From positions 1-46,885 of the forward strand of contig CAJOJI010000013.1 of NCBI GenBank assembly GCA_905234715.1: a DNA stretch of 46,885 nt, in the 5' to 3' direction. Below are positions 36,508 through 46,885 of this stretch, piece by piece. The translations under genes were made by a program, and so were the position numbers. This DNA is from an uncultured Saccharofermentans sp. GTDB taxonomy: Bacteria; Bacillota; Clostridia; Saccharofermentanales; Saccharofermentanaceae. The number at the start of each line of letters is the position of its first letter. The stretch's first letter is position 1. A model generated the notes under the pieces. That model had not been told where the DNA came from. It saw only the letters and a list, made by a program, of their open reading frames with translations, and did no database searches.

Positions 36508-36627
36508 ATCATGCGCCTCATAAACAATTCATAATCCCGTCCATTATACACGGAGACATCCGGCCCCAATAACAAATAAAATATTTTTAATGTATAATAA
36601 CCACATCAAATCATATGGGGTAATAAT

Positions 36628-37179
36628 ATGCTCAAGAAGACAGTAGCAGCGATCTTACTTGCCGGCACGGCGCTCTCCTTTTGCGCCTGTACTGCAGACT
36701 CGCACGGACCGAAGGCTACGACTATAACGTTCGCCCAGGAGTTCGTGGATCCCACAACAGAAGAATCCGTCGTAACGATAGAGACGGGCGAATTATTTGA
36801 GACCATCACGCTCAAGGGCTCCGGAGAAGGAGAGGAATTTCAGTTCAAATACGATTCCGATATCCTTCAGTACACAGGCCAGGGAGGCAACTTCTATCTG
36901 TGTGGCAGCACCGCCACCGAGTGTTATCTTCACATTATGGTCCAGAGCGACGACGGCACATTATATGACATGACAAAAGAGTCGGTAATGGGCTACATCT
37001 TGAAGCAGTTTAAGCTGGTATCCGGAAAGCGTGCCTTAAGTTATGCTACCAGTGAGGATAACGTGTACAACATCCTTATCGAATCAGACGGCAAGCTCAT
37101 CAATGTCCGTGTCGGCACAGCAGACAAATGGCCCTACTCAGTCGAGCAGATTGCCAATCTCATAGACAGCGGCTTCTGA
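36628..37179 (+). CDS. Putative lipoprotein
   Basis: MLKKTVAAILLAGTALSFCACTADS lipobox-like signal. Confidence 0.75.
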   Translation: MLKKTVAAILLAGTALSFCACTADSHGPKATTITFAQEFVDPTTEESVVTIETGELFETITLKGSGEGEEFQFKYDSDILQYTGQGGNFYLCGSTATECYLHIMVQSDDGTLYDMTKESVMGYILKQFKLVSGKRALSYATSEDNVYNILIESDGKLINVRVGTADKWPYSVEQIANLIDSGF

Positions 37180-37203
37180 TCAGAATTCACATCAGCAAAT
37201 CAT

Positions 37204-37905
37204 AACCACCCGTCAAACGGGTGGTTTGCACTGAGGCTATAAGCCTCTGTTACCGGCCAGCGCCTCAAGGCGCTGGCTTTCACATACGTTCAAGCCTTAT
37301 TGCCTTTGACCCGTAGCAGCCCATAAATGGGCTTTCGTATCACTGGCTACCCTTAAAAGGGTCTTCATATTCTTTTACACTCAGCTTATCCATTGCTATG
37401 TCATGCTTTTCCTGATCCTGAATGTATTTCTTTATTGTGGCTTCATTCAATCCCACTGTACTGACGTAGTATCCTTCCGCCCAAAAGTGTCTGTTGCCGA
37501 ATTTATATTTCAGATTTGCATGCTTATCGAATAACATCAGGGCACTCTTTCCCTTCAGATATCCCATAAACTGTGCTACTGAATACTTCGGCGGTATGCT
37601 CACCAGCATATGTACGTGGTCGGGCATGAGATGCCCCTCTATAATCTCTACCCCTTTGTACTGACACAGCTGTCGTAATATCTTTGCTATGCTTTCCTTA
37701 TACTGGTTAAAGATTATCTTTCTCCTATATTTCGGCGTGAACACTATGTGATATTTACACATCCATTTTGTGTGAGCTAAACTGTTATTGGCGTTTGCCA
37801 TTTCGTCACCTTTCCTTTCTATAATCTCGGCTTGAACACCTCGATTATAGGGAAAGGTGACTTCTTTGTATAACTTCTGTCGCGCACCCGCATAGCGGGT
37901 GGTTT
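37204..37905 (-). mobile_element. IS200/IS605-family insertion sequence (approximate ends)
   Basis: Intact TnpA-like ORF; terminal hairpin AACCACCCGTcaaACGGGTGGTT (37204-37226) plus further stem-loops (37233-37247, 37257-37278); opposite end ACCCGCATAGCGGGTGG. Confidence 0.8.
37340..37801 (-). CDS. tnpA: IS200-type transposase (TnpA, Y1 family)
   Basis: KWMCKYHIVFTPKYRRKIIF, IIEGHLMPDHVHMLVSIPPKYSVAQFMGYLKGKSALM, RHFWAEGYYVSTVGLNEATIKKYIQDQEKHD. Confidence 0.95.
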   Translation of the reverse strand: MANANNSLAHTKWMCKYHIVFTPKYRRKIIFNQYKESIAKILRQLCQYKGVEIIEGHLMPDHVHMLVSIPPKYSVAQFMGYLKGKSALMLFDKHANLKYKFGNRHFWAEGYYVSTVGLNEATIKKYIQDQEKHDIAMDKLSVKEYEDPFKGSQ

Positions 37906-37959
37906 ATTGTCTCGCACGCTTCGTTCCTCGCGTACTCGACGGAGTCACGTCTCCAAGAA

Positions 37960-37989
37960 TTAAAAGGTCATCTCGCTTGAGATGACCTT
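37960..37989 (-). terminator. Rho-independent terminator for the 38001-38420 gene
   Basis: AAGGTCATCTC-gctt-GAGATGACCTT; on the minus strand followed by TTTTAATT. Confidence 0.75.
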
Positions 37990-38000
37990 ATTCATTTCCG

Positions 38001-38420
38001 TTAAAAGGGTGAATCGACGTTATATCCTTTGGCTATGAGCAGATCGTACATGCTGCCGAGATAATCCTTGAACTTGCCTGTCAGCGAGTTAAATCTTTCT
38101 TCGTCTGCCATCTGTAATTCATAGGCATTCTGAAAGTTGAAAAACTCCTCACTCAGTTCTTTTAATTCCTCGAATTTGTTATCGCGAAAAACAGAACCCT
38201 CTGTTGTTGATATTGTGGCAACAGCCTGCGTTAATGTGAAACTGTCGGTGATCAATTTGATATTCAGCGGATCGACCTTGCCGTCAGGATTGGAACGCAC
38301 GAAATCCTTGCAGTTTAAAAGCTCGTTGTACACACCGGTGATCGTTGCAAAAACGCACTTTGCATATTCCGGATCAGTTACGCTGATCTTGGAAAGATCG
38401 AATCTATTCTCATCGCTCAT
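38001..38420 (-). CDS. Hypothetical protein
   Basis: 139-aa ORF with its own downstream terminator; no recognised motif. Confidence 0.65.
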   Translation of the reverse strand: MSDENRFDLSKISVTDPEYAKCVFATITGVYNELLNCKDFVRSNPDGKVDPLNIKLITDSFTLTQAVATISTTEGSVFRDNKFEELKELSEEFFNFQNAYELQMADEERFNSLTGKFKDYLGSMYDLLIAKGYNVDSPF

Positions 38421-38590
38421 AAGCTTTGCTCCTAAGTAAATCGATTTGCCGGCAGAAGCCCGCTGATTGAATTATATCAATCGAATATTGATGTGGACAA
38501 TAAATGATCTTCAGAATGACTACTAAGTCAATGCTATAATTCACATATATAGGGAATCTGGTTATTAGCTTTGGCTATAGTAAGAGGCAA

Positions 38591-40663
38591 ATGTGTATGG
38601 ACGATTTTTCTAATTATATAAGAACTGATTCGCGAAAAGCATTAATAACGTCTATAGAAGAATACATGTCTGTTCCAGATATTCTTTTTGATCATTGGAT
38701 AAAAATATCTGATTTTAATAATTCGTTTGGATTTGACCTGTTCTATCCGATAAGAAAAATCAATCTTAAAAATGGAGAGTGTGCATATATCGGGATTAAA
38801 ACCAAACGAATCGAATACACCGATGACAATAAAAAAAGTCAGATTAGATTAACTACAACTTCAAATCTGTTAGGTGATTCGTTCAAAAGGAATTTTCATC
38901 TTGAAGGCAGACTTATTTTGTTTGAATATTATGGCGAGAAATGCGATGAAGAATGGGATGAGGAGTCGTTTTATTATCGTTATTGCGGAGATTACTATCT
39001 TTCCAAACTAGAGATGAATTCTTTGGAAAAGAATTGGAGTTTGATGTTTTCAACTGATCCTAACGATTATGTATGGAAAAATAAGAAGGATAAAGATAAG
39101 TATGATGAGATAGAGGAGATCATAAAAAGAGAAGACTCTGTTAACTATCATATCGCTGAATGGATTGAGGATAGATTATCAGGTGCTGGAAAATTGAAGG
39201 GTTTATTACCTGATTTTAATATGGAGGAGTTCAAGAAAACAGACGCTTATTATCTCAAGATAAACGAAACCCTCTTTCATGAAATGCTCAATCTTGATGA
39301 TCGCAATAGCAATACGAAGAAACTGTTATTGCACTTTAAAAGAACTGTTGAGAATAAAGATGGTTCTCTTGTATATGAGTTTGATGCTAAAACCCGTGAA
39401 ATGATGGAAGTGGATTCGGAATTCTATGGGAATAAAGAATATGTTGATCTTGTTTATAAACCATATTACTACCAAGTGTTCTTTAAATATCCAAAAAATC
39501 TTTTGGATAATATTCCAGAACAATTAAAAGATATGAAAGACAATAATAACTATTGGTTTGAGGTTCCGGTTATTATTCTTAAAGTCGAAACAAATGATAA
39601 TTCGACTTGTATTGGAAAACTGTCTTTTGCTGCAAGTGATTATGAGTCAAAGGATATAATAGTTGCTTGGGATAAAGTTGTTAAAAGTATAAATACCAAC
39701 AATGCATTAACCGTCCCGCAAAATCAGATAATAAGCGGACAAACAATTAATGATTATTGCAATACCAATAATGATGATTGGGCGGATAAGCTTAAAACTA
39801 CGCTTGATAGCATTTTTGCGGGCAAGAATAATACAAGAAGCAAGATCGATATAACTATAAATAGAATAGGAGAAGCTAATTTTATATATTGTAAAGGCAA
39901 TCGCATAAGCTTTGCTTTCGACTTTGGAATTCCGACAGATGATAATATTGTTAATCAAGCTGGAGACTGTGATTACACATTTATTTCCGACCCCCAATAT
40001 TCCTATCATCCAAAACTTGTAATAATCTCACATTGGCATGAAGATCATATAAAAGGTCTGTTTTTACTTGGCAAGGATTTTTGGAACGACAGAGACGTTT
40101 TGTTTTTAGCGCCGGAATTCAATGATCCTTGTGCATCGGAAAGTGCGAAAAAACTAGTAAATTACCTACGTACTACAGGACAATTGATAGAAATATCAAA
40201 TTATGGAAAAGAAATATATAAAGTTGGAAGTGAGAATATCTTATTTCAAGGAAATGGGGATAAGAATAATAAGGATGACCCCAATCCGAAAGGGTTGTTA
40301 TTGCAATTAAGACACACATTACTTACCGGAGATTGTATAGCTGAATTCTGGCCTGACAATTATGGGGTTGGTAACAAATTTGATGTGATTGTTTTACCTC
40401 ATCACGGGTCGTGGGATTGTGTTAAGGGAGGCCATGTTTCTGGATCTTTATCATCTAGCACTAAAAAAATAAATTTAATTGCATGTAGTGGATTTAACAA
40501 TAATAGTAATCACCCGAATCTGTGGATTCGTCGCAATCTGAAAAGGAGATTTAATTCTTATGACTTTACTCTCCGTTGTACCAATATAAAAAATCCTTGG
40601 CGTGTTTATTCAGAACGCGAGAAATATAATTACAATCCTAAATTTACATATGCAGATGCATGA
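38591..40663 (+). CDS. MBL-fold (ComEC-like beta-lactamase domain) protein with large uncharacterised N-terminal region
   Basis: 690 aa; C-terminal IISHWHEDHIKGLFLLG, LLTGDCIAEFW, IVLPHHGSWD, NSNHPNLWIRRNLKRRF; no TM segments; AT-rich codon usage. Confidence 0.8.
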   Translation: MCMDDFSNYIRTDSRKALITSIEEYMSVPDILFDHWIKISDFNNSFGFDLFYPIRKINLKNGECAYIGIKTKRIEYTDDNKKSQIRLTTTSNLLGDSFKRNFHLEGRLILFEYYGEKCDEEWDEESFYYRYCGDYYLSKLEMNSLEKNWSLMFSTDPNDYVWKNKKDKDKYDEIEEIIKREDSVNYHIAEWIEDRLSGAGKLKGLLPDFNMEEFKKTDAYYLKINETLFHEMLNLDDRNSNTKKLLLHFKRTVENKDGSLVYEFDAKTREMMEVDSEFYGNKEYVDLVYKPYYYQVFFKYPKNLLDNIPEQLKDMKDNNNYWFEVPVIILKVETNDNSTCIGKLSFAASDYESKDIIVAWDKVVKSINTNNALTVPQNQIISGQTINDYCNTNNDDWADKLKTTLDSIFAGKNNTRSKIDITINRIGEANFIYCKGNRISFAFDFGIPTDDNIVNQAGDCDYTFISDPQYSYHPKLVIISHWHEDHIKGLFLLGKDFWNDRDVLFLAPEFNDPCASESAKKLVNYLRTTGQLIEISNYGKEIYKVGSENILFQGNGDKNNKDDPNPKGLLLQLRHTLLTGDCIAEFWPDNYGVGNKFDVIVLPHHGSWDCVKGGHVSGSLSSSTKKINLIACSGFNNNSNHPNLWIRRNLKRRFNSYDFTLRCTNIKNPWRVYSEREKYNYNPKFTYADA

Positions 40664-40685
40664 GTTCGCAATGTTCTTCTGAAAA

Positions 40686-41480
40686 TCACACCTTCCTCAC
40701 AAAATCCAACTCTTCCAGTCTCTTCCTGGCTGCGAAGAATTTGAGTGTTTCATCGCATTCTACAACGGTGTCTGTTCTGTCGTAGACCATGTTGAAGCTG
40801 TTGCTTGTAGTGAGGCAGTCTCTGATGCCTTCGTAGTCGATGCTGATCGATAATGAGGATTCAAGATACTTGATTATCGAACGCAGAGCGATGTGATCGA
40901 TGTCGGCTTCTGTGACCGGCGTGGGTTTGTAAGGGTCATCGTCATAATAGTCTTCCATCATGCAGTCGTTTATCTCACTCATCTGGTAGTCATAGAGTCT
41001 GTGAGGACCTTTGAGGAACTCTTCATATGTGGGAGTGCGTGTCGTCACGGTGTAGTTAGGAAGAAGCGTGATGAACTCTTCGTACAGCCTGCGGTTTTCT
41101 TCGTCGGATGCATCCTCGTCGTGGAACCTCCTGAACAGATTGGTTGCATATTCATTGTGTTCTTTAAGACGTGTTCTGGCGTCGATGAGCTTATCTTTCA
41201 TCTCGGTGTCGATCTTCTGTTTGATAGTCTTTTCATCTGATGAGGATTTGACCGTGAAATATTCACGGACTGTTACTGTCTTGAAGTGGTTTCTGTCAAC
41301 GACGGAAAGTTTATCCCAGTTGCTTGAATCCGACCAGTCGAACTGGGGGAATTCCTTTTTGAGACGTTCCTTGATGAACTTTCTTGCTGTCTGCTTTTCC
41401 TGATTGGAATTGAATTTGATGTTGTAGAAACTGAATATTTCTTTATAGACTGAGCCTGAATTCTGCATGTTTACCTTCAA
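40686..41480 (-). CDS. Hypothetical protein
   Basis: 264-aa ORF, charged; no recognised domain. Confidence 0.65.
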   Translation of the reverse strand: MKVNMQNSGSVYKEIFSFYNIKFNSNQEKQTARKFIKERLKKEFPQFDWSDSSNWDKLSVVDRNHFKTVTVREYFTVKSSSDEKTIKQKIDTEMKDKLIDARTRLKEHNEYATNLFRRFHDEDASDEENRRLYEEFITLLPNYTVTTRTPTYEEFLKGPHRLYDYQMSEINDCMMEDYYDDDPYKPTPVTEADIDHIALRSIIKYLESSLSISIDYEGIRDCLTTSNSFNMVYDRTDTVVECDETLKFFAARKRLEELDFVRKV

Positions 41481-41641
41481 GTAATCAAAAAAGTATCGAA
41501 AAACTTTAGCGAGTAATTAAAAGAAACCAATAAAATCAACTATTCTGCAAAAACTATAGCACGTTGCAAGGTAATCTGCAACCGTGATTTAATATTGGCA
41601 TCTTCGAAGACAAAAACCAACGTAACCGGGAGATATTTGTC

Positions 41642-43021
41642 ATGCATAGATTTAGTAATTATATAGCCATAAGAAGAGAATATTTCGCTACACATTTATT
41701 ATTTGAGGACAAAACGGAGGAGACGTTTGAGAATAGGATCAAACAGTTCGCCAGATTAAACAGAAGGTTCAGGGAGGCACTCGATCTTTTAACTGAACGC
41801 GAGAGGACGCTCCTTCTCGAATACATCAACAATCCTCATCTGGACAATCCGTTGTTCATCGCATTGTTTCCCCGTGAGAAAAACCAGAGATATGCGCGTG
41901 TCATCGTAAACAGGGCAGCGTATATAGTTGAGGAATATCTTAAGAGATTTGGGTTTATCGTGGAGATCCCCCGCTTGTCGCTTACGATATTTGCTGATGA
42001 TGAGGAAGAGATCGATTGCGAAGAAGAATGTGAAGAACAGATCATTATCGAAGAAGATCCGCTCATGCCTTACAGGGCAAAAGCAAGGACTCTCAATATT
42101 CCGCCCGAGCTTCTTTACCATTACGATAACCTGACAGAGCAGACTCCTGCCGCGTCGCGTCTTTCAGAAAAGGAGCTTTATAAGAGAGTAAAGAAGCTCT
42201 GTTTTAAATATGACATTCCTGAGGAACTTGAATTCTGTCTCCTGACGAGTGTTGCAGAATACTTAAGGGAAGGCACGGTAAAGCCGATACTCCTCGTGGG
42301 AAAGCCCGGTATCGGGAAGACTTATTTCGGCAAAGTGTTTGCGGAGATAATAGGGCTTTACTACTATAAGATCTCCGCACCCGGTTCTTCCGGCGGACGC
42401 GGCCTTACCGGTGATTCGCCGACTTTTAAGGCCGCGAGATTCGGCGAGATCGTAAATGCGCAGCTTGAGGCAAATGCCACCAATCCGGTGATCCTTGTGG
42501 ATGAGGTCGACAAGTGCATGATGGCCGCATCGCACCACACATTAAACGACGAGCTTCTGAGTTGTCTGGACAGGACAAGGGTGATACACGATCACTTCCT
42601 TGAGCTTGATGTTTCCACATCGCAGATCCCGTTTATCCTCACGGCAAATGAGATCAGGAGAGTGCCCGCATGGCTTAAGGATAGATGTATCACAGTTGAG
42701 TTTCCCGATCCCTCTGAAGCGAGGATCACATCGATCGTAATGAAGGAGTTCAATATACTTAAGAAGAACGCGCTTTACTGCAACAGGATCAGTATGGATA
42801 AGGATGCATTTATGAATGCCGTCACCAAGATGCGTGGCAGGGATATCGTATCGCTCCGCCAGTACGAGAATGTAATGGACAATGCTGCCAAGGTTGCATA
42901 TATCGAGATGCTCGAAAAGAACAGAAAGACCATGACAATAAGCGATCGTCATTTCACAAAGGTCATGCAGCTTCTCGGAACGCATACCACGGAGCACAGG
43001 ATCGGTTTCAGGACCGAATAA
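41642..43021 (+). CDS. AAA+ ATPase (Lon/MoxR-like ATPase module, no protease domain)
   Basis: PILLVGKPGIGKTYFGKVFAEIIG (Walker A), NPVILVDEVDKC (Walker B), IPFILTANEIRRVPAWLKDRC (sensor 1 / arginine-finger region). Confidence 0.88.
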   Translation: MHRFSNYIAIRREYFATHLLFEDKTEETFENRIKQFARLNRRFREALDLLTERERTLLLEYINNPHLDNPLFIALFPREKNQRYARVIVNRAAYIVEEYLKRFGFIVEIPRLSLTIFADDEEEIDCEEECEEQIIIEEDPLMPYRAKARTLNIPPELLYHYDNLTEQTPAASRLSEKELYKRVKKLCFKYDIPEELEFCLLTSVAEYLREGTVKPILLVGKPGIGKTYFGKVFAEIIGLYYYKISAPGSSGGRGLTGDSPTFKAARFGEIVNAQLEANATNPVILVDEVDKCMMAASHHTLNDELLSCLDRTRVIHDHFLELDVSTSQIPFILTANEIRRVPAWLKDRCITVEFPDPSEARITSIVMKEFNILKKNALYCNRISMDKDAFMNAVTKMRGRDIVSLRQYENVMDNAAKVAYIEMLEKNRKTMTISDRHFTKVMQLLGTHTTEHRIGFRTE

Positions 43022-43048
43022 ACAGTCATACAGTTACACCCATTAATC

Positions 43049-43122
43049 TTTCCTTTCTTAGAGATTGTTAATGACCCGGCAGGACATGTCCGCCGGGCCA
43101 TTAGCATAATAAAGAAAGGAAA
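43049..43122. terminator. Nested hairpin, probably a bidirectional terminator between convergent genes
   Basis: TTTCCTTTCTT (43049-43059) / AAGAAAGGAAA (43112-43122); inner TAATGACCCGGC (43069-43080) / GCCGGGCCATTA (43092-43103). Confidence 0.7.
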
Positions 43123-43141
43123 TTATATAGATGGAGACAGC

Positions 43142-43540
43142 TTATAACAATTCGTCGTCCTTGTATTCGAAGTTGTCCTCGCGCTCGAAAACTGCCACCT
43201 GCGTATCGTCGATATAGAACGCAACCCATTCAACCGAGATGTTTTCCTCGTCAAGCGAAAAGGCCAGCTTTATCGGCAGATTGTCACCGAAGATGCTGAT
43301 AGGTTCAGTCTCTGCGTAAAGAAAATATGAGTCCACCCAGGCTTTAACAAAAGGCAGAGGCTTGGCCTCACCTAAAGAGAGCCAGATGTTCTTTGTTACT
43401 TCGTTAAGACTTCTCATATCGTTCTCTATGTAATCCAGGATGTCGAGGACGTCGTCCTCCAGTCCTGTAGTGTCAACCAAAGAAACTATCTGATGGTTGA
43501 TCGAACCATCGCGGGTTTTGTTTTCATCGCTTTTTCTCAT
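43142..43540 (-). CDS. Hypothetical protein
   Basis: MRKSDENKTRDGSINHQ... with GGAGG upstream; ORF track extends to 43555. Confidence 0.65.
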   Translation of the reverse strand: MRKSDENKTRDGSINHQIVSLVDTTGLEDDVLDILDYIENDMRSLNEVTKNIWLSLGEAKPLPFVKAWVDSYFLYAETEPISIFGDNLPIKLAFSLDEENISVEWVAFYIDDTQVAVFEREDNFEYKDDELL

Positions 43541-43565
43541 AGCTGTAACCTCCAAATGATTTCTT

Positions 43566-43603
43566 ACTATAGGAAATGGTTGGTTTTTTGAGATTTGTAA
43601 AAT
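43566..43603 (-). promoter_or_regulatory. Shared element, copy A
   Basis: Minus strand TTTTACAAATCTCAAAAAACCAACCATTTCCTATAGT upstream of 43142-43540. Confidence 0.75.
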
Positions 43604-43713
43604 GAAATCTGAATTATTGTCAAAACATTTCGATGTGGCCTTATATATAACTGTAAATAAACTTCAATAATACGGATCCGGCTATCGAAAAATATCAGGA
43701 AAAATACGAAAAA

Positions 43714-43754
43714 AGTTTTACTTTTTCGAAAAAGCCAACCATTTCCATATATAG
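43714..43754 (+). promoter_or_regulatory. Shared element, copy B
   Basis: AGTTTTACTTTTTCGAAAAAGCCAACCATTTCCATATATAG. Confidence 0.75.
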
Positions 43755-43940
43755 AGGCCATTCATCTGATAACGATTAAAGAGAGAAAGTGCCCTAAAAC
43801 AGGGCATTTGAACCCAATCGGCCCATCTCGCAAAACTTTTTTGTAATTAAATTACAGAAACTATTTACAAACGGGTATCTGATGTGATAGTATATGGCCA
43901 TCAAACAAAAACAAAACATTTTTTACAGGAGGAAATCACA

Positions 43941-44204
43941 ATGGAAAAGACAATCAGAGACATCTACTTCGAGCTCGTAAACGGCAACTCACAGGTCCGC
44001 TTCTTCGATGTTGAGACCAACGAGACGCTCAAGGTTATGAACATCACACCGGGCTTCTCAGACCCTGAGCTCTTCATCAAGTTCATCGCAATCCCCTGCG
44101 CTGCAGAGATGATGGACGTCGACGTAAGAGACTACAAGATGTTCTACCTCCCGATGTTCGAGAGACTGGTTACCTGGCTCAACGCTGCCAATGAGGCAGC
44201 GTGA
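43941..44204 (+). CDS. Small orphan protein, likely strongly expressed
   Basis: MEKTIRDIYFELVNGNSQVRFFDVETNETLKVMNITPG...; AGGAGG ribosome-binding site; sigma-A-like promoter TTTACA (43864) N18 TAGTAT (43888). Track start 43884 is likely too far upstream. Confidence 0.75.
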   Translation: MEKTIRDIYFELVNGNSQVRFFDVETNETLKVMNITPGFSDPELFIKFIAIPCAAEMMDVDVRDYKMFYLPMFERLVTWLNAANEAA

Positions 44205-44281
44205 GACACGGTAGTTGTATATCACTAAAAAATTTATTAAACTGATTACAAAATTTTTGTATATCCGACCGGAGAAACCAG

Positions 44282-45361
44282 ATGGAAAAGCGTTTATATG
44301 AAGTAAAGAAGAAGGGTCCCACGGAAGAGTGTGATTCTGACCACTATGAACTTAAAGAGACGATAGATGGTGCGACGATAACCACTCTTTACGTTGAGAC
44401 TCATGCACCCAACAGAAAAATGCTTAAGTGGATGCTGGAGTCTGCGGTGGGACTAAGCCGTACACTGCCTCAATTTGCCAAGGATTGCAGTGATCCTTTT
44501 AAATGCAGGCTTAATACAAAAACGATTAATCTGCCTACGCTCAAGAGAATACTCTCTGAGAATGATGTCGTAAGACCATTAAAAGATGACGTTATCCAGG
44601 CACTTCTGAATAATGCGGACAATCCTGCCACCGTGAACGGGGATGACCTGATGAGGGCCAACGGCCTTGAAGATTACAGGCAGGTGCTGCTTGCAAGGCA
44701 GAAGGCGACATCTTTGGCAGTCAGGCTTGAAAATGAAAAACGTTTTCTTGTCCTGAATGCACGCGCAGCAGAAGATATCAGAAGAAAACTTAACTCCGTC
44801 AAAAGTTCTGCACAGACGAATTGGATATCTGTACCAAACGGAACATCCGTAAAGAATATTCCTCCTACAAATACCAATCGTTTCTGGTATGGGGAGGAGT
44901 ATGGTTTTCTTGAGCCGTATGGTTTGAATCTGGCTTTTATGGAAGCAGATAAGAAAAAGATACACTCATACTGGGGCTTCTTTGTAGACAGCACGGAACC
45001 CGGTAAAGATATGGATGAAGTAAATCTTATAAGAGATCATTATGAGATCTTTTTATACGACATAATTCATCCTGATTATCTGAATGATATGAAGGTAAGC
45101 TTTGTTTTCCAAAACCAGTCCGGCTACAACAAAGCGATTGAACAGCTTGCGGACTATAAGGTAAATAATTATTTTTCTGTCATTCTTATCAGGAAGGGTG
45201 AGATAACTGCAGAATATACACTTGCAAAGAAGGACGGATCAAGACCTGAATGCTGCTTGGGCGATTTCTCCGAACATTACGAGAATGATGTGTTCGAAGA
45301 TGCAGTAAAGTACTATGAAAACAGGCTTCAGACAACGGATGTTCCTGTCTTTGGATATTGA
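44282..45361 (+). CDS. Hypothetical protein, paralog 1 of a tandem pair
   Basis: TLPQFAKDCSDPFKCRLNTKTINLPTLKRILSENDVVRPLKDDVIQALLNNADNPATVNGDDLMRANGLED; C-terminal SVILIRKGEITAEYTLAKKDGSRPECCLGDFSEH. Confidence 0.75.
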   Translation: MEKRLYEVKKKGPTEECDSDHYELKETIDGATITTLYVETHAPNRKMLKWMLESAVGLSRTLPQFAKDCSDPFKCRLNTKTINLPTLKRILSENDVVRPLKDDVIQALLNNADNPATVNGDDLMRANGLEDYRQVLLARQKATSLAVRLENEKRFLVLNARAAEDIRRKLNSVKSSAQTNWISVPNGTSVKNIPPTNTNRFWYGEEYGFLEPYGLNLAFMEADKKKIHSYWGFFVDSTEPGKDMDEVNLIRDHYEIFLYDIIHPDYLNDMKVSFVFQNQSGYNKAIEQLADYKVNNYFSVILIRKGEITAEYTLAKKDGSRPECCLGDFSEHYENDVFEDAVKYYENRLQTTDVPVFGY

Positions 45362-45390
45362 TGCAGATGAGCATTGGAGAGAATAAATCT

Positions 45391-46494
45391 ATGAATAAGG
45401 ATTATATATATCAAGTTGAACGTGACCCGGAAACACTTAAGTATAAGATAACTAAGTGGCACGGTACCGTTGGTGAGGTTACAACATATGTTGAGAAAAG
45501 AAGTCCCAACAAAGCTGACCTCAAAGAGATGCTTGAACATGCAAAGGGACCTGACAGAACGATGGCGGAATTTGCAGCGGATTGCAGCAACAAGAACATA
45601 TGTGAACTGAACGATAAGGTAATCGCACCTCCGGTATTCTCGAGAATAATCAAGGGCGTCGGACTCAAGCGTCCGCTGAAACCGGCCTTAGTGCAGGCTA
45701 TCCTGAATAATGCGGCGGATAAGGACTTTGTAACACCGGAAAACCTCATGAGAGCAAACGGCCTTGATGAGGAAAGGGAAGAAAGCAAATCCGAACCTGA
45801 ATTGAAACCGTTTTACGGATATACACGTGCCAAGAATGACAGAGCTGTAAGTGATCTCAAGAAAGCTCTTCACGGCAAAGGCTATGAAGCTTATAGAGTA
45901 ATACAGTCTGAACAGTTTAATTATGTCGGAAAAAATGTTCCGTTGCGTGATGACACACCGAATAAATTTGATCTGAACATGGATTTTGATGAAGTCCTCC
46001 GTGTAACAGACAAAAAGGGCAAAGAATTCCTGTGGGGCTTTGTAATAGATGGAACTGAACCTGAAGATATCGGTAACGGAGAGGTTGTATTAGAAAGTCT
46101 GTACTATGAAGGGTATTACAGAGACAAGGAAGAAGCCGAAGAAGATGTCGAGGACAACGTGATCGACAAAAACGGCAAGATACTTCTCCGTGCACTTCTC
46201 GATCCGGCTTCTCTTAAAGGAATAAAGATAAGCTTTGTCTGCCAAAACAGGTTCTGGTACAACTTTGCCGTCGAAGCTCTAAAAGATATTGAAGTCGATA
46301 CGTACATTTCAGTTGTCCTGATCCAGGATTATAAAGTAGTATCCGAATTTACCCTGAAGAACAAGAAGGACAAGAGACCTAAATGTATTCTCGGTGAGTT
46401 CAGGGAACAGGATGACGAAGACCGTTACGAATGGGATGTAATGGATATTAACGGGAAAACAGAACGGATAATCAATCCGCCTCTGGGGTACTGA
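45391..46494 (+). CDS. Hypothetical protein, paralog 2 of a tandem pair
   Basis: TMAEFAADCSNKNICELNDKVIAPPVFSRIIKGVGLKRPLKPALVQAILNNAADKDFVTPENLMRANGLDE; C-terminal SVVLIQDYKVVSEFTLKNKKDKRPKCILGEFREQ. ATG at 45391 preferred (GGAGA upstream). Confidence 0.75.
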   Translation: MNKDYIYQVERDPETLKYKITKWHGTVGEVTTYVEKRSPNKADLKEMLEHAKGPDRTMAEFAADCSNKNICELNDKVIAPPVFSRIIKGVGLKRPLKPALVQAILNNAADKDFVTPENLMRANGLDEEREESKSEPELKPFYGYTRAKNDRAVSDLKKALHGKGYEAYRVIQSEQFNYVGKNVPLRDDTPNKFDLNMDFDEVLRVTDKKGKEFLWGFVIDGTEPEDIGNGEVVLESLYYEGYYRDKEEAEEDVEDNVIDKNGKILLRALLDPASLKGIKISFVCQNRFWYNFAVEALKDIEVDTYISVVLIQDYKVVSEFTLKNKKDKRPKCILGEFREQDDEDRYEWDVMDINGKTERIINPPLGY

Positions 46495-46520
46495 TATATA
46501 GTTCAAAATAAGCATATAAA

Positions 46521-46541
46521 GCGCCCTTAACGGGCGTTTTA
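46521..46541 (+). terminator. Probable terminator after the tandem pair
   Basis: CGCCC-ttaac-GGGCG followed by TTTT. Confidence 0.7.
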
Positions 46542-46558
46542 GTATCCAGTCCGAAAAA

Positions 46559-46600
46559 GTGTTTTACAAATCTTCAAAACCCAACCATTTCCATATAGTG
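46559..46600 (+). promoter_or_regulatory. Shared element, copy C
   Basis: GTGTTTTACAAATCTTCAAAACCCAACCATTTCCATATAGTG upstream of the sigma-factor gene. Confidence 0.75.
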
Positions 46601-46628
46601 AAAAACTTATGAAAGGGTGGATGGAATA

Positions 46629-46885
46629 ATGGGTAATAGCAGATTGCTGACTTTTGAAGAAGAACAGGACCTTTTCAGGAAATACAAAGAGGATAATGAT
46701 CCTGAAGCTCGTGAAGAGATCATATGTTGTAACGTTAATCTCGTGAAGTCGATGGCAAAAAACTACCTGGTAGAGGGTGTCGAGTACGACGATGTCGTAA
46801 GTGAAGGCTGCCTAGGCCTCATGAAAGCAGTCGAAAAGTTTGACTATAAGCTGGGGTATAAATTCAGCACATATGCTCACTGGTG
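46629..46885 (+). CDS. RNA polymerase sigma-70-family factor, truncated at the window edge
   Basis: LTFEEEQDLFRKYKEDNDPEAREEIICCNVNLVKSMAKNYLVEGVEYDDVVSEGCLGLMKAVEKFDYKLGYKFSTYAHW (region 2). Confidence 0.9.
   Translation, partial: MGNSRLLTFEEEQDLFRKYKEDNDPEAREEIICCNVNLVKSMAKNYLVEGVEYDDVVSEGCLGLMKAVEKFDYKLGYKFSTYAHW

Follow-up and report, generated by a model that had tools for sequence, protein, structure and literature searches.

Alternative sigma factors that activate their own genes from private promoters are already a known kind of regulon. The sporulation sigma factors E and K of Bacillus and Clostridia use CATA-type -10 boxes, with C at position -12. In Streptomyces, a terminal Ala-Ala marks ClpP substrates, the sigma factor AntA included, and SigT induces clpP1/clpP2 (PMC9775585). 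The anti-phage system MZA has a sigma factor of its own, MzaA. Here we analysed a repeated promoter-like element in a 46,885-nt stretch of DNA (the window), which is the entire contig CAJOJI010000013.1 (C13) of an uncultured Saccharofermentans sp. genome (GCA_905234715.1, G000) and ends within sigma1, a gene of the sigma-70 family. The element is probably a dedicated promoter read by RNA polymerase with an alternative sigma factor from the same locus: sigma1, a second, divergent sigma factor (sigma2) of the related loci, or both.

As in autoregulated alternative-sigma regulons, the sigma gene stands under the promoter class of its neighbours, whereas two unlike sigma factors, the lack of a recognised anti-sigma gene and sigma-70-like spacing with C at -12 set the locus apart. 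SigE and SigK promoters are alike in the -12 C followed by AT and in their normal spacing, and differ from the present element in its -35 TTTACA and conserved spacer end. Identity with SigE or SigK was rejected on the best scores of sigma2 (33-47 bits, against NCBIfam cut-offs of 252-349), and neither sigma1 nor sigma2 reached any NCBIfam equivalog cut-off. The SigT-ClpP1/P2 and sigma-AntA systems of Streptomyces offer a ClpP-degraded sigma factor, a terminal Ala-Ala (sigma-AntA) and sigma-driven clpP expression (PMC9775585); they involve other sigma factors and other partners, sigma-AntA being of the extracytoplasmic function type, whereas here one local promoter class precedes both sigma genes and clpP (in two genomes) and degradation is putative. 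The sigma-70 domains of the locus match the MzaA model, but the score of 239 against a cut-off of 800, and the absence of any MZA model match among the other locus proteins tested, led us to reject assignment to that defence system. Neither the locus nor the promoter class turned up in a limited search of the open-access literature.

The earlier note on this DNA had described three copies of TTTTAC-N13-CCAACC with an identical 13-nt gap and a trailing (A)TATA. The window contains exactly three copies of TTTTAC-N13-CCAACCATTTCC, at 43572-43602 (-), 43716-43746 (+) and 46562-46592 (+), the second with a differing spacer as the note had said, and four matches were obtained when up to three mismatches were allowed, against a mean of 0.03 in shuffles. 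No further exact copy was found in the 2.78 Mb genome (174 contigs). The copies are real, and as read from the sequence TTTTAC-N13-CCAACC is a -35 box plus the end of a spacer, the functional boxes being more plausibly TTTACA and CATTTC, 17 nt apart. Copy A (43573..43602, -) has -35 TTTACA (43601-43596), a 17-nt spacer ending in CCAAC and -10 CATTTC (43578-43573), and lies upstream of an orphan gene. Copy B (43716..43745, +), divergent from A, has the same spacer length, spacer end and -10 box (43740-43745) behind a -35 box TTTACT (43717-43722), and copy C (46562..46591, +) repeats the pattern of A before sigma1 (-35 at 46563-46568, -10 at 46586-46591). Counted from the end of CATTTC, the ATG lies 32 nt away for copy A, 37 nt for copy C and 195 nt for copy B, which is probably the distal promoter of the small gene X; in the related loci L077 and L078, a comparable distal copy precedes X by 181 and 282 nt. 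The distance of TATAGT behind CCAACCAT varies (3 nt in the related locus L076, 4 nt in A, 5 nt in C), so the trailing TATA was removed from the fixed element. Between copy C and its ortholog in G077 (L076), spacing is kept through CCAACCAT but the following TATAGT is displaced by 2 nt, and the fixed unit is therefore TTTACA - 17 nt - CAT.

A search for the exact motif in 114 other genomes of the family gave scattered two-mismatch matches only, in a number similar to that of a reversed-pattern control, which is the chance level expected because spacer end and -10 box differ by lineage. Orthologous loci were therefore located by protein first, using the paralogous genes P3 and P4 that lie between X and sigma1. 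Strong relatives of both were found in only three other family genomes (G077, G008 and G088), which are the rumen Ruminococcaceae metagenome-assembled genome (MAG) RUG13376, Ruminococcaceae bacterium AB4001 and an uncultured Clostridia MAG. Extending the search to the whole order brought in no further genome with strong P3/P4 relatives. The three loci all hold X, sigma1, P3, P4 and sigma2, and those of G008 and G088 extend into clpP, an AAA+ gene and a SprT-like protease gene. Relatives of sigma2 without sigma1 occur in G038 and G070, and the two sigma factors form separate, supported clades.

In total, 18 elements were collected at six loci (G000, G077, G070, G038, G008 and G088) of one rumen Oscillospiraceae genus, all of them in sigma-factor loci. 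Within the -35 box (TTTACA or TTGACA) the TT, A and C are invariant in 18/18, and so is the CAT of the -10 box, hence the C at -12. The boxes are separated by 16 or 17 nt in all 18, both lengths occurring even within one locus, and every element points toward a downstream start codon, mostly 32 to ~75 nt away and in five cases at about 180-280 nt. This is the layout of a two-box sigma-70-type promoter, with boxes about 17 nt apart, oriented to the gene and with the -10 box shortly before the start codon; a housekeeping sigmaA promoter would have a -10 box close to TATAAT with T at -12, which these elements lack. By its sequence the element is best described as a promoter of sigma-70 geometry with C instead of T at -12. 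Behind the elements lie sigma1 (in G000, G077, G008 and G088), sigma2 (in G077, G070, G008 and G088), X, clpP with the AAA+ gene, the SprT-like protease gene and the orphan gene of the window. The sigma1 gene of G077 is preceded by TTTTACAAATACTCAAAACCCAACCATCTATATAGTG, a clear ortholog of copy C, which bears out the conservation upstream of sigma orthologs that the earlier note had proposed to check.

The spacer end and -10 box were common to the copies of one locus and different between loci. The window has CCAAC-CATTTC, and the promoters before sigma2 in G077 and G070 read TTGACA...CCACAC-CATATA/CATTAA (class form CCACAC-CATWWA). The G008 and G088 loci have five elements each, mostly CGTCA-CATAAA or close variants. 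The clearest case is a divergent pair in G038, before an AAA+ gene and a 122-aa open reading frame (ORF), with CGCCC-CATATA and CGCCC-CATAAG and a shared CGCCCCATA. This is the pattern that joint drift of a sigma factor and its promoters would produce.

Matrices trained without the locus in question were used to scan it, and shuffles of each locus, scanned likewise, gave the count expected by chance. Copies C and A of the window scored 18.7 and 15.2 bits with 0 expected per locus, and both G077 sites, the G070 site and 10/10 sites of G008 and G088 were also recovered at 0 expected. Genome-wide, exact GTTTACA-N11-CGTCACATA was found 4 times among 115 genomes and nowhere outside the sigma loci of G008 and G088. 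One of the four, before the G088 SprT-like gene, was first revealed by this search; two-mismatch matches elsewhere remained at control level. The looser CSMMC-CAT grammar of the window group gave 14 matches in 85 genomes of the genus, 6 of them in sigma loci and including both G038 promoters, compared with 16 for the reversed pattern; single scattered matches outside sigma loci were at or below control level, and clusters appeared only in sigma-bearing loci. Confinement to sigma-bearing loci holds for the exact class and for the clusters. Wide occurrence of the motif at unrelated places, which had been set beforehand as refuting the idea, was not found, and the 18 elements support the earlier proposal of a dedicated promoter before the sigma gene and its neighbours. 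A dedicated, self-contained regulon appears well supported by these patterns. Viral contigs gave two exact motif matches, where about two are expected by chance (an estimate from collection size), with no sigma locus in the stretches read. Outside the G088 locus, at C1:140593 (L191), a two-mismatch promoter copy (ATTTACGAAATACAAAAACGTCACATAAAG) is followed by AGACAGATAA repeats and stands ~200 nt upstream of what may be a gene; it could mark a distant member of the regulon.

The sigma factors share a further feature at the protein level. In loci L076, L077, L078, L145, L146, L148 and L149, all nine sigma1/sigma2-type ORFs counted end in -AA, compared with 3 of 168 other long ORFs, and the same ending is found in three of four X proteins. 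In G008 and G088, clpP is preceded by the promoter class. By analogy with Streptomyces, the -AA tails suggest turnover of the sigma factors by ClpP.

The proposed course of events starts from basal expression through a sigmaA-like promoter. A sigma factor of the locus would then fire copies A, B and C and raise its own level by positive feedback, because the sigma genes lie under the promoter. The promoter would consist of -35 TTTACA/TTGACA, a 16-17 nt spacer with a lineage-specific end and -10 CATNNN. In the window it would drive sigma1 from copy C, the orphan gene from copy A and probably X-P3-P4 from copy B, the last in tandem with a sigmaA-like promoter that bears a putative palindromic operator; in relatives, sigma2, clpP-AAA+ and the SprT-like protease would also be driven. 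The -AA tails would make the sigma factors, and most X proteins, substrates of ClpP, and since ClpP would be made from the same promoter it could help to turn the locus off. Transcription from the elements we infer from their sequence, as we do the feedback and proteolysis from gene arrangement and protein tails. More tentatively, and as a possibility to which we give less than even weight, the locus could act as a portable switch built from two sigma factors, a promoter class of its own and a proteolytic off-arm (ClpP, AAA+, SprT-like protease), in which co-drift of sigma factor and promoter yields an orthogonal set in each lineage.

Several observations weigh against a dedicated promoter of a locus sigma factor. 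The promoter grammar was first gathered by inspection, a step from which the held-out and genome-wide tests alone are independent. Copy B is weaker (12.8 bits, 0.4 expected per window, -35 TTTACT), as is the G038 pair (15.0 and 11.9 bits, 0.2 expected). The G000/G077 and the G008/G088 elements are partly related by descent, so that 18 elements do not amount to 18 independent cases. The more divergent sigma factors of G063 end without -AA, and the degron role is an analogy. Furthermore, sigma1 is absent from G038 and G070, although both carry the promoter class and sigma2, a sigma1 relative in G058 has no such promoter, and sigma2 was not found in the G000 assembly. No single sigma factor therefore covers every case, unless an assembly gap hides sigma2 in G000; there may be such a gap, since the assembly also lacks the remainder of sigma1 and the genes found downstream of it in G077.

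A sigma factor of the locus nevertheless likely reads the class, because the class is confined to sigma loci, the sigma genes lie under it, and its lineage-specific sequence is shared by the copies of a locus. Since promoters occur in G038 and G070 without sigma1, and a sigma1 relative occurs in G058 without such a promoter, sigma2 or both sigma factors appear at least as likely readers as the adjacent sigma1, and presence and absence somewhat favour sigma2. Two E. coli substitutions, Q437H and T440I, act as suppressors of T-to-C at -12 (PMC2613000). At the T440 position, sigma1 has Met (G077) or Ser (G008, G088), and at Q437, sigma2 has Asn (G077, G038), Ser (G008), Arg (G088) or His (G070); the residues predicted to read -12 are altered in both. 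Region 4.2 of sigma1, unlike that of sigma2, is close to RpoD, which would suit sigma1 for the TTTACA box.

Alternatively, a DNA-binding regulator encoded in the locus, such as P3 or P4, could bind the element. The element lies close to start codons, and the predicted helical bundle at the N-terminus of P4 could be a helix-turn-helix (HTH). However, the element is asymmetric, always oriented to the start codon and tolerant of 16 or 17 nt within one locus, and it is present in G070 and G038, where P3/P4 were not found. A more operator-like sequence of a different kind stands beside the second, sigmaA-like promoter of X (43842..43893, +), where the 15-bp palindrome TGTAATTAAATTACA (43842-43856) is directly followed by TTTACA-N18-TAGTAT (-35 at 43864-43869, -10 at 43888-43893). 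This arrangement recurs before X in L076, L077 and L078, and the palindrome changes in sequence between loci while its arms stay complementary (TGTAATTAAATTACA, TGAAATTTAATTTCA, TGCAATTTAATTGCA). This suggests that the palindrome, and not the element, is a regulator site, perhaps of P3/P4, and we regard a regulator site at the element itself as unlikely. Palindromes of 13-15 bp upstream of a -35-like TTTA box were observed before X in the window and the three related loci and before P3 in L077; the sites in relatives are L076 11534 (-), L077 5804 and 7088 (+) and L078 2013 (+). In L076, a short ORF (MLRKSFDPVHLFVVDYKAF, ~12718-12659, -) lies between a sigmaA-like promoter and the second promoter of sigma2 and is possibly a leader peptide.

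A further reading is a housekeeping sigmaA promoter of low strength, possibly assisted by an activator, with TTTACA as -35 box and CATATA or the nearby TATAGT as -10 box. In its favour, the -35 box suits sigmaA, CATATA or CATAAA could serve as -10 boxes, if poor ones, and TATAGT lies just downstream in A, C and L076. Against this stand the universal C at -12, the CATTTC of the window, which is no sigmaA -10 box, the unfixed position of TATAGT, the confinement of the exact sequence class to sigma loci and the better sigmaA-like promoter that stands separately in the same locus; together they make a sigmaA promoter improbable. An origin of the copies by chance, or as leftovers of a small repeat that was mobile or duplicated, is very improbable and largely refuted by the held-out matrices and the 18-element listing: A and C are close in sequence and a block at 36.6-43.5 kb of the window that is not in L076 carries a TnpA-like transposase, but similarity ends at the box edges, spacers differ, shuffles hardly reproduce the matches (0.03), and the same geometry with different spacer sequence recurs before orthologous genes. 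We also weighed pairing between CCAACC and the Shine-Dalgarno region and rejected it, as the element lies upstream of the expected start site.

The orphan gene (P0002; 43142..43540, -), 132 aa from its ATG and 32 nt downstream of copy A, matched nothing in Pfam, PHROG or NCBIfam. A hairpin, TGCCCT-AAAAC-AGGGCA (43790..43806, +), separates copy B from X and is possibly an attenuator or terminator. X (43941..44204, +) encodes an 87-aa conserved small protein ending in -AA and is followed by P3 (44282..45361, +; 359 aa) and P4 (45391..46494, +; 367 aa). No relative of P3/P4 was found in viral contigs or among solved structures. The predicted P4 model (mean pLDDT, a per-residue confidence score, 69) gave no significant structural match, so that its N-terminal bundle is HTH-like only by inspection of the predicted helices. 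A terminator-like hairpin, GCGCCCTTAACGGGCGTTTT (46521..46540, +), just before copy C probably ends the X-P3-P4 unit. From sigma1 (46629..46885, +) the window holds 85 residues from the likely ATG before the contig end; the full ortholog in L076 has 265 aa from the corresponding ATG and a C-terminal -AA. Compared with L076, a ~7 kb block (window 36600-43560) occupies the place of the nudix and sigma2 genes and holds the TnpA-like transposase (37340-37801), a metallo-beta-lactamase-like protein (38591-40663) and an AAA+ gene (41642-43021).

Distant P3/P4 relatives and sigma1-like genes were observed in other family genomes (L079-L082, L084, L151, L152 and L155-L157), where they adjoin one another, or clpP and SpoVK-like or other AAA+ genes, several of them behind TTGCAA-type repeats. 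They may belong to a broader family of sigma/protease loci whose genes have been shuffled. One contig of 4 kb (L198) contains part of P4 but no sigma gene, and appears to be a degenerate remnant.

If the dedicated promoter is confirmed, these loci would represent a regulon of rumen Oscillospiraceae not described before, and its promoter class would lend itself to direct testing in a reporter strain. The -10 region beside the sigma genes, which changes from lineage to lineage, would then offer a natural series for the co-evolution of sigma factors and their promoters, and ClpP-tagged sigma factors together with clpP under the same promoter would form a compact on/off circuit.

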